NCBI GenBank assembly: GCA_945897565.1
Contig: CAMDFN010000002.1
Span: 62,001 to 126,000 of the forward strand
DNA length: 64,000 nucleotides
Source: Chryseobacterium gleum
GTDB lineage: Bacteria > Bacteroidota > Bacteroidia > Flavobacteriales_D > Crocinitomicaceae
Direction: 5' to 3'
Part shown: positions 30,913 through 36,850 of the stretch, piece by piece
Position numbering within the stretch: the stretch's first letter is position 1
Layout of the letters: each line of letters opens with the position of its first letter
The notes under the pieces: generated by a model
Told to the model about the DNA's origin: nothing
The model's database searches: none
The model's input: the letters and a program-made list of their open reading frames with translations, nothing else
Program-made: the position numbers and the translations under genes

Positions 30913-33363
30913 CTAAAAATTTAGGGAGTAGCGGGCTTTGATACCAAACGGGCTGATGCCTGGTATTTGATGCGTAGCGCGGTAAATGAAATCAATGCGG
31001 ATTACTTTGAGGATGTTTTCAATCCCGACGCCAAGTTCTACATATGGAATTCCGTTAAATGGCCGCACGAAGGATGGAATCAGCAGCGCCTGATTTTGCT
31101 GTTCAGATAGGCTACCGAGCATAATGCGCTCCGTGGTAATGAGTCTAATTTTACTGGCCTTGATGAGTGGAATGCGGTCAAAAAACAAGCCTTCCCAGCG
31201 GTTTTCAGCAAAACCAATTACATAGCGATCACTAATGAACTCAAGGAAATTAACCATGTTGGCCGTGCTCGTGAGCAACCACAATGATTGGTTGCCTTCG
31301 TGTACTTTGAGCAGAGGATACGCAGCAACGCCATTGATGTAACCAAGTGTAAATCCGTAACGCATTCTGCCGAGAACACCCAGCTGTGTATTGTGTTCGA
31401 ATTGGAATTCTAATTTTTGGTAGTTGTAGTCACTGCCAAATACATCTTTGAATCCAAAAATTCCTTGAAAAGACAAAATCGGGTAAGGTGAGCGCAAGGC
31501 GGTGCGGTCAAAAGAACCTGACAGGAATTCTTCATCTTTGGTCCAGCGGATGCGCGTGGTGAACTCTGTTGCGGTAATTTGACTGATATTAAGGGTGTCT
31601 AATCCGTTCCATTGTTGGTAGGTAGCCAAGCCAAGAGGAGTATAGTTTTTCCATTCGAGTGCGCCAAATATGATGAGGTCTTTACGGATGTCTTTTTCTA
31701 GGCTAAGCCCGGCTTTTTGTACAAACGTGAGTTTGTCAAACGGTGCGGTACTCAAAAAAGTAGCAAACGAGGTGCCCATAGAAGCTGCGGTGGGTGACTG
31801 CCCAATTTGCTCGATGTCGTAGTTGTAATAGGCATTGAGCATACCGCGTTTCTGAGGTGTGATATTGTAACGCAGTCGAATGTTATACTTGAAGCGCTCA
31901 TCTCCAAAACCATAGGCCAGGCGACCGCCAATTTCAAAGCGTTTAGAGAAATCATTTGATGTGCGCAGCGCTAAAGCCACTCTGAAGTTTTCTACCGGAT
32001 TGACACTCAATAATGAAGCCGCAGAACCAATTTCAACTTTTTTCACAGGCCAATATCCGGTGGTTGCAAAGTAGGTGAGTTTGCGCATGGTTTGGTAAAA
32101 GGGCTGTGCTGCGAGGGAGTCTGCCATTTGCTCAATGCGTTCTTCCTTGTTACTCAAAGAAATTGGCCTAAGCTGCGCCCATTCGGCATCGTTGCGTGCT
32201 TTGGCGTTGCTCAGCACAGCAACTGAACTGCTAGACCGATAAAATTCTTCGGGCTGGGCATTATTGATGACGTACTGACTCCGTTGGCTGTATTTGCGAC
32301 CGATGAGGCCTAAAAATTTTGATTTTTCTGTTACTTTGAACGAAAGCACCATTTTTTCGCTGGTGAGCATCCAAACTTCTTTTTGAACTTGCTCAAATGC
32401 TTGTTCGATATAAAATTCCTGAATGTAATTGATGTTGGCACCTGGGGCAATATTCGCTTGAAATCTTTTGACTGCATAGGTGGTGTCATGGACCCACATA
32501 TGCCCTTCAAAAACTAAGTCGCCACTGCGTTTGGGAACAAAGCGCAGTTTGTAGCACCAATCGGCGCCAATAAAAGTAGAATCGTCTAGGTAAAATTGAT
32601 AATAAGTGCGGGCATACGGCGCAAGCGGGCTAATGAACGATTTATTGAATAGATCATAGATATTGTCATAGATATTGAGCTCTAAGTACATGTCGCCGAG
32701 AAACTGCGTCATTTGCATGTTCTCCACACCGGTAATGCGCGTCGCCTCAACGACCTCTTTTTTAAGCTTCGGGTCTTTGCGATAGAAATAGTCCGAAACA
32801 CTCTCCGATAATATCACTGGCAGCAATGATTTATCTGCGGAGTCTGTTTGGAGGTAACTTTTGACAATAGAAAGTCTATCGACAAGCGGGTTGTTAATGA
32901 GGCCAGAGTCTAGGTTGTTGGCATCGAGTTGAATTTTGTTGTAGAGATGGTATTGGTAGGCCGCGAGTTTCTCTTTGTTGTTGATGTCCTTGTAAGTGAT
33001 GATGCGCCTGTGCAGTTGTGCGCCACGTGTTTCAGTAGGGGCTGTTAAAACTACTTCTGCCACTTCCTTGTCTTGGCTCGCAAGCTTAACAACCAATTCT
33101 TGTATCTGGTCTTTTTTGATTTTAACGCGTTCTGTTTGGTAACCGATGAGCCGAAAAACAAGGCTGTCTGTTGGGTAGTAGGTACTGAGGTAGAAGTTAC
33201 CCAAGCTGTCGGATTTTGTTCCGATTTTACTGTCTAAGAATTGAATTTGGACATAGCTGATGGGCGCTCCTTTTTTGTCGGTAACCCTTCCCTTTACAAC
33301 AGTTTGCTGGCCCCACAGTACCAAAACGCAAATGTTGAACAATAAAAAACTAAGTAAGCGCAT
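30913..33363 (-). CDS. DUF5686 outer-membrane protein with CarboxypepD-reg-like domain
   Basis: An 816-residue protein with a signal peptide (1-18), an N-terminal carboxypeptidase-regulatory-like domain (about 20-100, VVKGRVTDKKGAPISYVQI) and a long C-terminal region of alternating strands that ends in a typical outer-membrane barrel strand (ARYSLNF). This is the DUF5686 arrangement of Bacteroidota. The function is unknown; it is not a clear TonB receptor because no plug domain is seen. Its start overlaps the tatC stop by one base, so the two are coupled. Confidence 0.87.
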   Translation of the reverse strand: MRLLSFLLFNICVLVLWGQQTVVKGRVTDKKGAPISYVQIQFLDSKIGTKSDSLGNFYLSTYYPTDSLVFRLIGYQTERVKIKKDQIQELVVKLASQDKEVAEVVLTAPTETRGAQLHRRIITYKDINNKEKLAAYQYHLYNKIQLDANNLDSGLINNPLVDRLSIVKSYLQTDSADKSLLPVILSESVSDYFYRKDPKLKKEVVEATRITGVENMQMTQFLGDMYLELNIYDNIYDLFNKSFISPLAPYARTYYQFYLDDSTFIGADWCYKLRFVPKRSGDLVFEGHMWVHDTTYAVKRFQANIAPGANINYIQEFYIEQAFEQVQKEVWMLTSEKMVLSFKVTEKSKFLGLIGRKYSQRSQYVINNAQPEEFYRSSSSVAVLSNAKARNDAEWAQLRPISLSNKEERIEQMADSLAAQPFYQTMRKLTYFATTGYWPVKKVEIGSAASLLSVNPVENFRVALALRTSNDFSKRFEIGGRLAYGFGDERFKYNIRLRYNITPQKRGMLNAYYNYDIEQIGQSPTAASMGTSFATFLSTAPFDKLTFVQKAGLSLEKDIRKDLIIFGALEWKNYTPLGLATYQQWNGLDTLNISQITATEFTTRIRWTKDEEFLSGSFDRTALRSPYPILSFQGIFGFKDVFGSDYNYQKLEFQFEHNTQLGVLGRMRYGFTLGYINGVAAYPLLKVHEGNQSLWLLTSTANMVNFLEFISDRYVIGFAENRWEGLFFDRIPLIKASKIRLITTERIMLGSLSEQQNQALLIPSFVRPFNGIPYVELGVGIENILKVIRIDFIYRATHQIPGISPFGIKARYSLNF

Positions 33364-34142
33364 TAGTTTTTTTCTTGCTTCACAACCCGTTTGGCAACTA
33401 AGATACTTAGCTCAAAAAGCAGGTAAATAGGAATGGTGACGATGACCTGAGATATGACGTCCGGTGGGGTAATTACGGCGGCTAAAATAAGGATTACGAC
33501 AATGGCGTGCTTTCGGTATTTGATGAGGAATTCAGGGGTGACCAGCCCAATTTTTACCAATAAAAAGGTGACAATCGGGAATAAAAAGAACAGCCCTGTA
33601 TAAAAGACAGTCGATAGTATGGTGCTCATGTAAGAGGCGATTGTGACGTCTGTTTTGATTTCGGGAGTAATCTGAAAAGCGCCAAAAAATTGAACGCTCA
33701 GAGGAGCCACTATATAGTAACCGAAGAGAATACCTAAGAAAAAAAGTAAACTGACATAAAAGACGATGCCTTTTGCCATGTCTTTTTCACTTCCTTTGAG
33801 CCCGGGCTTTATAAAAGACCAAAGTTGATAAAATATATACGGGAATGCCAATACCACACCACCCATGATGCTCATCATTAGCGCATATGAAAATTGACCC
33901 GCAAGGGTAGTACTTTGGAAATCTACATGAATTTGATCTACGCAAACGCCAAGGTATTTGCAAAGGAGTTCAAAGGTAATAAAGTGAGGGTCTACCATGT
34001 TGAGAAAGACATTCTCCATGATTTCGCGCTGGTAGATCCAAATAACAACCGAAAAAATGATGACTGCAACTGCTGCCCTGAGTAAGCGCCAGCGGAGTTC
34101 TTCTAAATGATCTAAAAATGACATTGGTTGGTCCTCAGACAT
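33363..34142 (-). CDS. tatC: Sec-independent translocase subunit TatC
   Basis: Core of the twin-arginine translocase, which moves folded proteins across the inner membrane; 259 residues with about six spans. The N-terminus has the conserved SFLDHLEELRWRLLRA, which binds the twin-arginine signal. The middle has PLSVQFFGAF and the last spans have ILAAVITPPDVISQ. First gene of the tatC-DUF5686-lptB operon. The minus-strand -7 box ends four bases before the ATG. No tatA/B gene is visible in the window. Confidence 0.96.
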   Translation of the reverse strand: MSEDQPMSFLDHLEELRWRLLRAAVAVIIFSVVIWIYQREIMENVFLNMVDPHFITFELLCKYLGVCVDQIHVDFQSTTLAGQFSYALMMSIMGGVVLAFPYIFYQLWSFIKPGLKGSEKDMAKGIVFYVSLLFFLGILFGYYIVAPLSVQFFGAFQITPEIKTDVTIASYMSTILSTVFYTGLFFLFPIVTFLLVKIGLVTPEFLIKYRKHAIVVILILAAVITPPDVISQVIVTIPIYLLFELSILVAKRVVKQEKN

Positions 34143-34243: not shown

Positions 34244-34555
34244 ATGAATAAGAAATTTGCAATTCAACACATTTGGTTCAACAATCAAGACGCAGAAGTT
34301 ACTTTAGTCGGACTCATGCAAGACGACACTCTTTTCTATGAAACGAAGCTTGTGATCAAGATGGCACAGCTCAATGGGGTTGTTTCTAAACTTCAAAAAA
34401 CAGCGGGGATTGAAGTGAGCGAATACATGTGCAGATTCGAGCTCGGTTTTATAACGGAATACGAAATAAAGTTCCCTACTACCGTACAATGCTTTTTAGA
34501 CCTACAAGAAATTATAGGGGCAGATCAGCATTTGGTCAGAAGAATTGTAGCTTGA
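34244..34555 (+). CDS. Small protein of unknown function
   Basis: A 103-residue protein with alternating strands and one central helix. It has no signal peptide, no membrane span, and two cysteines (YMCRFE and VQCFLD). I recognise no family. The region before it contains GAAATTTG near 34217, an imperfect -7 box. It converges with the first lipoprotein gene with four bases between the stops. It is real by its clean frame, start and position, but its role is unknown. Confidence 0.62.
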   Translation: MNKKFAIQHIWFNNQDAEVTLVGLMQDDTLFYETKLVIKMAQLNGVVSKLQKTAGIEVSEYMCRFELGFITEYEIKFPTTVQCFLDLQEIIGADQHLVRRIVA

Positions 34556-34559
34556 GCGC

Positions 34560-34928
34560 TTAAGGCTGGATAAAAACGGTTTCTTCGTTTACCTTTTCAG
34601 CTTCAATTTTAATGATGCCTTGCCCTGTTTTGTTGCCTTTTTGAGCTTTGATGTCTAGAACGGCTACACCTGCCTGACCCAACTGATACAATTCGTTGTA
34701 GTTGAAAGTAGCTAAACCATTCGCGTTCGTATAGGCGGTGTCAAAGACAGCAACTTGTTGAGGCGTACTTTGTGTGTTGGTACCGTACAAAACAACCATG
34801 GCGTTTGAAACACTTGCGTTGGTCTCGTCTTTGACATAAATATGTGCAACGGTATCCATTTTTTTACGACACGCACTTAGAGATACAAGTGACGTGGCTG
34901 CAACGGCAAATAAAAGAATCTTTTTCAT
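34560..34928 (-). CDS. Lipoprotein, member A of a three-gene paralogous set
   Basis: A 122-residue lipoprotein with lipobox LSAC (cysteine at residue 20) and a beta-rich body. The body shares a pattern with the next two genes: strands around AHIYVKDETNASVSNAMVVLYG, then FDTAYTNANGLATFN, then ldIKAQKGNKTGQG. Such short regulatory-like or Ig-like folds often serve as surface or periplasmic modules; the function is unknown. The gene follows member B with only a five-base gap. The product has no other visible domains. Confidence 0.8.
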   Translation of the reverse strand: MKKILLFAVAATSLVSLSACRKKMDTVAHIYVKDETNASVSNAMVVLYGTNTQSTPQQVAVFDTAYTNANGLATFNYNELYQLGQAGVAVLDIKAQKGNKTGQGIIKIEAEKVNEETVFIQP

Positions 34929-34933
34929 GGTAG

Positions 34934-35305
34934 TTAGTTGGGTAAGTAGATAGTCTCGACAGCGGTGGTGTGCACTTTGGCGCGGGTATAGCCATAGGCC
35001 GTTTTGTTGTTGTATTTGACGATGATGTCAAAATACCCGGTTTTGTTGCTCTCGCCCGATACAGAGAAATAGGGATCCATGTCGAAAGACGTAAATCCGG
35101 AAGAATTTGTGTAGGTGGTGTCTACGTAGGCCAAAGTGGCGGGCGTAGATTGCTGGTCGCCGATTATAATGACCTTGGCGCCATCGATGAGCTGATTAGA
35201 GGATGAGCGAACAAAGACCTTAATAATTGCTGGGTCTGTAGGCTCACAACCACTCAAAATGAAGAGCAGTGAGAGCGCAAAAAAGCTGGTTAGTATAGTT
35301 TTCAT
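34934..35305 (-). CDS. Lipoprotein, member B of a three-gene paralogous set
   Basis: A 123-residue lipoprotein with lipobox LSGC (cysteine at about residue 20). The body repeats the scheme of member A: IIKVFVRSSSNQLIDGAKVIII, then YVDTTYTNSSGFTSFD, then YFDIIVKYNNKTAYG. The frame is open to a TTG at 35323, but a -7 box covers that codon, so ATG 35305 is used. It is probably cotranscribed with member A, and is followed on the upstream side by member C after a 62-base gap. Function unknown. Confidence 0.8.
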   Translation of the reverse strand: MKTILTSFFALSLLFILSGCEPTDPAIIKVFVRSSSNQLIDGAKVIIIGDQQSTPATLAYVDTTYTNSSGFTSFDMDPYFSVSGESNKTGYFDIIVKYNNKTAYGYTRAKVHTTAVETIYLPN

Positions 35306-35320
35306 AGGTTTAGAATGTTT

Positions 35321-35328
35321 CAAATTTA
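35321..35328 (-). promoter_or_regulatory. -7 box of lipoprotein genes B and A
   Basis: Minus strand TAAATTTG, 15 bases before the ATG at 35305 and overlapping the TTG codon that an upstream start would use. Confidence 0.5.
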
Positions 35329-35367
35329 CATTTTAATTTTTGAATTTTAAAACTTCGAAAGTGGTGT

Positions 35368-35757
35368 TTATTGTATTTGAAGGAGCACTTGATTGCGTTC
35401 TTGTTCAGTAATTTCTGCAAGTGCCTCGCCGGTCAGGCCAAAATAGAAGCCCTTCACCTTGATTTGCATGACGCCAATTTGCCCCGGTTTGTAGAAAGAA
35501 CTGAGGTCAAAGTAGGCTTTACCTGCGTCATTTGAAACCGAGCTATCTTGCACCGCAATGGGGTTGTGGGCGGTGTCGGTAGGTTCGGCAACGAGCCAAA
35601 CTTTTGCATTAGAAATGATAGTGCCATTGGCAGAGACCACCGAAACCTCTAAGGTGGTGGGGGGTGTTTCTTTGCAGGACACTAAAAAAAACACTAGGGC
35701 AATCAGCGATAGAAATGCGATGGCCGCGATAGTGTTCAGCTTTTTTTTCTTGTACAT
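35368..35757 (-). CDS. Lipoprotein, member C of a three-gene paralogous set
   Basis: A 129-residue lipoprotein, starting MYKKKKLN, with an unusually basic N-terminus and lipobox LVSC (cysteine at about residue 28). The body follows the same scheme as members A and B but is more diverged: TLEVSVVSANGTIISNAKVWLV, then VQDSSVSNDAGKAYFD, then MQIKVKGFYFGLTG. The frame also has ATG codons at 35763 and 35772; the shorter start fits best with a signal peptide. Function unknown; position suggests the set arose by tandem duplication. Confidence 0.75.
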   Translation of the reverse strand: MYKKKKLNTIAAIAFLSLIALVFFLVSCKETPPTTLEVSVVSANGTIISNAKVWLVAEPTDTAHNPIAVQDSSVSNDAGKAYFDLSSFYKPGQIGVMQIKVKGFYFGLTGEALAEITEQERNQVLLQIQ

Positions 35758-35830
35758 TTGCATGAAGACCAAGATTTTTCGTTGTTAAACAACAAGAAGG
35801 GTCAAAAGGTTACAACAGAACCGCTTAAAA

Positions 35831-36850
35831 ATGAATATTGAAGTTTTATCACTAGAATTAAGTCAAGTTCAGCTCCAAGACGAACAAGTGCTCGAACAAT
35901 TCCGCATCCGCTTTTTGGGTTCAAAAAACGTACTCAAAGATTTGTATGCTGCAATTAAAGACATTCCGAACGACCAAAAACGGGCTTACGGCCAGCAGGT
36001 CAATGGGCTCAAAGAACGCGCTGAACAAATCTACCACGAAGCAAAAGCAGCCCTCACCCAAACGCTTAGCGCAGGCGCAGCCGAAGACCTCAGCAGACCT
36101 ACAGGCGAGGCCAAAGTAGGCGCACACCACCCCCTTTCGCTCATCCGCCGCGAAATCATCGAAATATTCAATCGCGTTGGTTTTGTAGTGTCCGAAGGGC
36201 CCGAAATCGAAGACGACTGGCACAATTTCAGTGCGCTTAACTTTCCGCCTGAGCATCCGGCCCGCGATATGCAAGATACCTTCTTTATCTCCAAAGGAGA
36301 AAACGAGTTGGCGCTGCGCACGCATACAAGTAGCGTTCAGGTGCGCGTCATGGAAGACCAAGCGCCACCGATTAGAACAATTTCACCAGGGCGTGTCTAC
36401 CGCAACGAAGCCATTTCGGCACGTGCACACTGTTTTTTTCACCAAATAGAAGGTTTGTATATTGATAAAGGTGTATCCTTTGCCGACCTCAAACAAACAT
36501 TGCTATATTTTGCGCAGGCACTTTTTGGCCCACAAACCCAAATCCGCATGCGGCCGTCGTATTTTCCGTTCACCGAACCTAGTGCAGAGGTTGATGTTTC
36601 TTGTTCGCTGTGCAATGCAAAAGGTTGCAATGTGTGTAAGTACACCGGTTGGTTAGAAATCATGGGTTGCGGCATGGTAGACCCCAACGTGCTCGAAGCT
36701 TGCGGCATTGACCCCGAGGTTTATACAGGTTTTGCTTTTGGCATGGGCGTGGAGCGTATTGCCCAGCTCAAATACCGCGTAACCGACCTGCGTTTGTATT
36801 CAGAAAACGATGCCCGTTTCTTGCGTCAGTTTAAACCGGGTATGGCATGA
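35831..36850 (+). CDS. pheS: Phenylalanyl-tRNA synthetase alpha subunit
   Basis: Catalytic subunit that charges tRNA-Phe with phenylalanine; works as a tetramer with PheT. The 339-residue protein has an N-terminal coiled-coil arm (about 1-85) and the class II catalytic core with the region around HTSSVQVRVM, motif 2-like GRVYRNEAISARAHCFFHQIEGL, PSYFPFTEPSAEVDV and the closing motif 3 GFAFGMGVERIAQLKY. A short insertion with CSLCNAKGCNVCKYTG carries four cysteines that may bind a metal. pheT is not adjacent; ytxJ follows with a four-base overlap. Confidence 0.96.
   Translation: MNIEVLSLELSQVQLQDEQVLEQFRIRFLGSKNVLKDLYAAIKDIPNDQKRAYGQQVNGLKERAEQIYHEAKAALTQTLSAGAAEDLSRPTGEAKVGAHHPLSLIRREIIEIFNRVGFVVSEGPEIEDDWHNFSALNFPPEHPARDMQDTFFISKGENELALRTHTSSVQVRVMEDQAPPIRTISPGRVYRNEAISARAHCFFHQIEGLYIDKGVSFADLKQTLLYFAQALFGPQTQIRMRPSYFPFTEPSAEVDVSCSLCNAKGCNVCKYTGWLEIMGCGMVDPNVLEACGIDPEVYTGFAFGMGVERIAQLKYRVTDLRLYSENDARFLRQFKPGMA

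Follow-up and report, generated by a model that had tools for sequence, protein, structure and literature searches.

Three tandem paralogous lipoproteins beside pheS: copy history and a possible docking role

Introduction

Positions 34560-35757 of the 64,000-nucleotide stretch of DNA analyzed here (the window) are taken up by three minus-strand ORFs, transcribed in the order A, B, C and lying between pheS and tatC. What are these three genes, how did they come to stand side by side, and what might their products do? An initial annotation took them for tandem paralogous lipoproteins with a common motif and order of elements, and read their divergence as a hint of old duplications and possibly of different ligands. 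The A-B-C array was not found described in a narrow literature search, and the host bacteria are known here from metagenome assemblies.

Results

Organization of the locus

Gene A, the pheS-proximal paralogue, occupies 35368-35757 on the minus strand (35371-35757 without the stop codon) and encodes 129 aa from the ATG at 35757. An alternative ATG at 35763 (M-Q-M-Y-K) gives a protein of 131 aa, and a MQ[MI]Y-type start is found in 25 of 33 A-class loci; gene A may thus start at 35763 instead. The middle paralogue, gene B, lies at 34934-35305 on the same strand (34937-35305 without the stop; 123 aa) and the distal one, gene C, at 34560-34928 (34563-34928 without the stop; 122 aa, minus strand). 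The B-to-C gap has a median of 7 bases (range, 5 to 90) over 44 loci, and this tight tandem makes co-expression probable. On one side stands pheS, coding for the phenylalanyl-tRNA synthetase alpha subunit (35831-36850, plus strand; PF01409, E = 4.1e-94), which serves as the syntenic anchor of the family in the order, and on the other side tatC (33363-34142, minus strand; PF00902, E = 7.4e-62).

Two neighbors complete the picture. A convergent ORF of 103 aa without Pfam match (34244-34555, plus strand) ends a few bases from gene C and is given as context only; in some of the genus loci blastp gave no match to it at the corresponding position. Just downstream of tatC, 30913-33363 on the minus strand encodes a DUF5686 protein whose N-terminal CarbopepD_reg_2 domain belongs to a fold class near that of the three lipoproteins.

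Three divergent lipoproteins of one family

Sequence searches, profile comparisons and the presence of a signal peptide with a lipobox all bore out the description of A, B and C as tandem paralogous lipoproteins. With C as the query, the source genome yielded B (E = 7.8e-12), A (E = 1.2e-8) and no further match at E <= 0.001, and a 51-row family profile run against the same genome (2.24 Mb, given as 100% complete) retrieved only A, B and C at E <= 0.1. Profile-profile comparisons gave E values of 4.1e-39 for C/A, 6.5e-17 for C/B and 1.7e-15 for B/A, at pairwise identities of 21 to 26%. The lipoboxes of the three ORFs read LSA-C, LSG-C and LVS-C, each ending a signal peptide and followed by a body of about 100 residues, and the lipobox cysteine is placed in 177 of 179 aligned family rows. 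By signal peptide and lipobox cysteine, A, B and C thus classify as bacterial lipoproteins, with lipidation predicted.

The motif pointed out in the initial annotation is kept in all three proteins, with a correction to its spacing, which was one residue short: N-x-G occurs in 0 of 3, and the residues stand as N-x-x-G. The corrected form, [DV][TS]xx[TS]N-x-x-G-xxx-F-[ND], is present in 3 of 3 proteins, has no further occurrence in the window's six frames, and was found 0.0 times per window in 20 residue shuffles. As for the K-rich strand described next to it, our reading of the sequences finds it clear in C and B but weak in A. Gene B lacks the family GQxG motif; the majority of B rows have SGxxNxTGYFDI, and the loops SxxNQL and GDQQS are near invariant in B.

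The only cysteine in the A, B and C proteins of the window is that of the lipobox. Among relatives, extra cysteines occur in even numbers (2 or 4) in 8 of 34 outgroup sequences (L033, L034, L043, L046, L048, L051-L053) and as a CxC pair in 9 of 41 distinct C-class sequences (L072, L075-L082, L084), and in the B class 27 of 39 sequences, in the A class 3 of 31, have a single extra one. Judging from this pairing, the extra cysteines of the outgroup and C-class proteins likely form disulphides.

No Pfam or NCBIfam model scored over its cut-off for A, B or C. The best sub-threshold match was TIGR04134, a radical SAM-associated putative lipoprotein family, with C at E = 6.4e-05; its cut-off of 39.8 bits was missed by C (23.0 bits) and B (16.9 bits), A was not among the matches listed, and 16 of 48 family members matched at E <= 0.01. 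The three proteins resemble TIGR04134 in being small lipoproteins but differ in scoring under the cut-off and in coming from a genome with 0 matches to the partner radical SAM family TIGR04133, a model that in a control gave a match in 13 of 14 genomes, none above cut-off. Other candidates were rejected. Matches to the PG1828 family (7 of 48) and to LIC12338 (2 of 48) lay within the N-terminal stretch, among the matches listed. Homology to BamK came down to weak NCBIfam matches in 3 of 48 members (best E = 0.0019), which carry no weight because BamK is a peptidyl-prolyl isomerase, as described in PMC12578637.

Predicted fold and structural relatives

AlphaFold2 models built on alignments of relatives reached a pLDDT of 83.7 and a pTM of 0.67 for C, and 91.3 and 0.75 for B, the alignment used for B including its paralogues. 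Both models are seven-stranded sandwiches with strands in matching places, B having one extra short helix. Differing folds would have spoken against the initial reading; C and B, the two copies modeled, agree, and profile homology extends the expectation to A. The three proteins hence appear to share a transthyretin-like or CarboxypepD_reg-like fold, according to the models for C and B and to sequence for A.

Structural comparisons placed both models near a Bacteroides fragilis transglutaminase-family fragment (3e8v; Z = 12.7 for C and 11.8 for B, each with an rmsd of 2.7 over 82 aligned residues). Carboxypeptidase N and D domains (2nsm, 5aq0) scored between 9.9 and 10.6, the transthyretin-like domain of carboxypeptidase D (5aq0) having Z = 9.9 for C and 10.2 for B, and the N-terminal extension of SusC (9hfj) scored 8.6 and 9.0, respectively. 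An archaeal S-layer protein (8qox_B; Z = 11.3 for C and 12.0 for B) and other structures match as well as the transthyretin-like domains do, so that fold is a poor guide to role. With Foldseek alone, two chains passed E = 0.001 for C and three for B, and a PDB sequence search with B gave a best E value of 0.1.

CarboxypepD_reg domains (PF13620, PF13715; 5aq0, 9hfj) belong to the same class of seven-stranded sandwich, with Z scores of 8.6 to 10.2. The window's proteins differ from them in being free-standing lipoproteins, and their PF13620 scores (14.4, 15.3 and 15.4 bits) are far below the cut-off of 32.3. The fold is also related to that of the SusC N-terminal extension, whose deletion, according to PMC7782687, blocked growth on levan, its role there being left as unknown. 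In PMC3213119, TssJ is described as a lipoprotein of the outer membrane with a transthyretin fold and a loop by which it docks TssM; it has an extra helical domain that is absent from the C model, which shows no helix outside the signal peptide. TssJ was not among the 50 structural matches listed for C and B, a list beyond which neighbors may include it, and its model TIGR03352 was not listed for A, B or C and matched 1 of 48 family members, at E = 0.0085.

Distribution and conserved neighborhood

Using C as the query on 100 genomes, including its own, we obtained a match in 94, i.e., 57 of 61 from the genus and 37 of 39 from the rest of the order. Completeness is 71 to 86% for the four unmatched genomes of the genus, and 78% and 100% for the two unmatched outgroup genomes. 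In a phylum-wide scan, 13 of 198 genomes matched, strongly for our genome and one other of the same order, and at E values of only 2e-7 to 9e-4 for the other 11; pheS was found within roughly 10 kb in 0 of the 5 neighborhoods of these weak matches that were examined (L220-L224). We rejected a phylum-wide presence of the family on these figures, which come from at most 21 candidates scored per genome, and distant members can thus be missed.

In the order, the gene typically sits beside pheS. Thirty-one of 33 outgroup loci contain pheS, 28 a divergent cyclophilin gene and 27 a gene of roughly 112 aa, in most cases adjoining and convergent; where pheS is missing (two loci), the sequence stops at or inside the cyclophilin gene. 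Of 49 genus loci, representing 44 genomes with 5 repeats, 47 contain pheS. The cyclophilin and 112-aa genes were found in 0 of 49 of these loci, and genes of both kinds are present elsewhere in the source genome.

Copy history and rates of evolution

Outside the genus, 36 of 37 matching genomes of the order have one match to C and one has two. Within it, the pheS locus has the arrangement A-B-C in 30 of 44 genomes, A-B-C with a second C copy in 3, and B-C in 11. The old duplications proposed from the window are thus supported at the level of the genus, which has A-B-C, with or without the second C, in 33 of 44 genomes; the single match in 36 of 37 outgroup genomes does not support a greater age. 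The mean identity of outgroup sequences is highest to C (36%), lower to A (25%) and lowest to B (21%), and by this sequence measure C is ancestral-like, standing nearest to the single copy found in the order's other families.

In a tree of 76 rows and 104 columns, whose bootstrap had not settled, B formed a single clade (100/100), whose stem measures 1.87 changes per column and whose end branches measure 0.04 to 0.14. Fifteen of 17 A rows grouped together (99/99), the other two standing apart. C, the second C copies and B were also grouped (96/91), which could be a long-branch placement given the few columns and the unsettled bootstrap. Mature proteins from 32 loci with all three copies had mean identities of 0.84 for C, 0.79 for B and 0.49 for A. 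Median dN/dS was 0.029 for C (42 pairs), 0.025 for B (30 pairs) and 0.061 for A (25 pairs). Each gene was represented by 16 sequences of the window's clade, and of the 120 pairs only those with a dS of 0.05 to 1.5 were kept. All three copies are under purifying selection, and A is the fastest evolving. Given the low dN/dS, all three appear to be functional, B having first passed through a burst of change, as its long stem indicates. A long stem followed by tight conservation is plausibly a pattern of neofunctionalization, and the suggestion that the three proteins have different ligands would be compatible with this stem and the later strong constraint.

A fourth relative, D, is a lipoprotein encoded elsewhere in the genome. 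It was found in 15 of 99 genomes at E <= 2.6e-58, the next match being at 3.5e-15, and forms a separate clade in the tree with a branch length of 2.0. In all eight D loci that were read (L212, 4965-5342; L213, 4917-5270; L214-L219), D is flanked on one side by a gene resembling a ZIP transporter and on the other by one resembling prolyl-tRNA synthetase (proS), both confirmed by Pfam in L212. D is present in 9 of 11 genomes without A at the pheS locus, versus 0 of 33 with A; this complementarity may reflect a single event in one clade. At yet another locus, some genus members encode a longer lipoprotein (L225, 1346-1972, 209 aa; L226, 4608-5225, 206 aa) in which the N-terminal domain is related and several cysteines are shared.

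Membrane side and conserved surfaces

The surface export signal C-x-K-(D/E)2 was defined in Capnocytophaga, other species varying, as reported in PMC5080379. It is present in 0 of 3 window proteins and absent from 31 of 31 A, 38 of 39 B and 41 of 41 C distinct sequences of relatives; in the outgroup it is absent from 26 of 34 and present in 8. A looser rule, taken from PMC12578637, calls for at least two acidic residues within six after the cysteine. B has two such residues in the window, and A and C have one each; the rule is satisfied by 28 of 39 sequences of the B class and 24 of 34 from the outgroup, but by 9 of 41 in the C class and 1 of 31 in the A class. C has a net positive N-tail. Because of the export-signal and looser-rule counts, a periplasmic orientation is probable for A and C but perhaps does not apply to B; the ancestral copy and B may face outward.

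Positions conserved at 95% or more are about as frequent in loops as in strands, both in B (22 of 44 versus 26 of 50) and in C (23 of 44 versus 29 of 49), as would be expected of a docking surface. No sign of catalysis was seen in A, B or C.

Discussion

The account that we favor, which we hold to be only a little more probable than its opposite, is that A, B and C are outer-membrane docking lipoproteins and that B has a new role. Its computed basis consists of homology, the predicted fold of B and C, synteny, copy history and purifying selection; we infer the membrane, the side, the docking and the change of partner. One ancestral gene beside pheS, conserved in the order, would have been duplicated into the A-B-C tandem. 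After export and lipidation of its cysteine, each copy would sit in the outer membrane, where the beta-sandwich would act as a non-enzymatic docking module for a partner; A and C would most likely face the periplasm. C would retain the ancestral role, B would have taken a new, now fixed binding role, and A would be the copy that diverges fastest.

The initial annotation leaned toward surface-exposed binding lipoproteins with three different ligands, an alternative that deserves attention even if we think it unlikely. The two acidic residues behind the cysteine of B, the frequency of such pairs in B-class and outgroup sequences, and the export signal in 8 of 34 outgroup copies all argue for it, and the divergence of A among genomes would fit a variable outside world. 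It has to contend with the absence of C-x-K-(D/E)2 from the window's three proteins, with the single acidic residue of A and C and the scarcity of pairs in their classes, and with the positive N-tail of C. That the three copies are instead largely redundant, kept for dosage and drifting rather than acquiring new functions, is an improbable reading: the tight tandem and the absence of A from 11 of 44 genomes agree with it, but all three genes are under purifying selection, and B, lacking GQxG, is nearly fixed after its long stem branch.

Quite improbable, in our opinion, is a function in a machine that assembles or folds outer-membrane proteins, of which A, B and C would be accessory subunits acting together with the cyclophilin divergently encoded in relatives. 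This gene adjoins the lipoprotein gene in 28 of 33 outgroup loci, and Bacteroidota BAM complexes are described as using accessory lipoproteins, some of them peptidyl-prolyl isomerases (PMC12578637, PMC12611786); however, the cyclophilin is at none of the 49 genus loci, the BAM subunits reported in these two sources differ from A, B and C, and BamK matches are few and weak. A hydroxyisourate hydrolase-like enzymatic activity, or a role in binding metal, would have in its favor the resemblance to 2gpz (Z scores of 8.2 with C and 8.6 with B) and the even-numbered extra cysteines of some outgroup and C-class sequences. Hydroxyisourate hydrolase ends in a C-terminal YRGS-type motif. The three proteins end in IQP, LPN and QIQ without such a motif, no hydrolase family was among the Pfam matches listed, and the window's proteins have no cysteine besides that of the lipobox, which makes this alternative extremely improbable.

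The docking account can be carried further, at the price of becoming tentative: a docking lipoprotein found across the order, usually in single copy, might have given rise in the genus to a trio in which each member has a partner of its own and the two sides of the outer membrane may both be occupied, the inner one by A and C and the outer one by B. The B copy would have gone through a burst of change and then been fixed, and the role of A would be replaceable by D at the proS locus, the whole making up an unnamed envelope module. We regard this extended version as possible, though on the unlikely side.

The gene set is real, well kept and of a known kind, and what is new about it is its copy history rather than its fold. 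The family has matches in 57 of 61 genus genomes and in 37 of 39 genomes sampled from elsewhere in the order, yet the window's three members pass no Pfam or NCBIfam cut-off. The find is fairly ordinary except for one copy, B, with its large change followed by strong conservation, and it offers a compact, testable case in which a small envelope adaptor would have been duplicated, changed fast and become fixed again.
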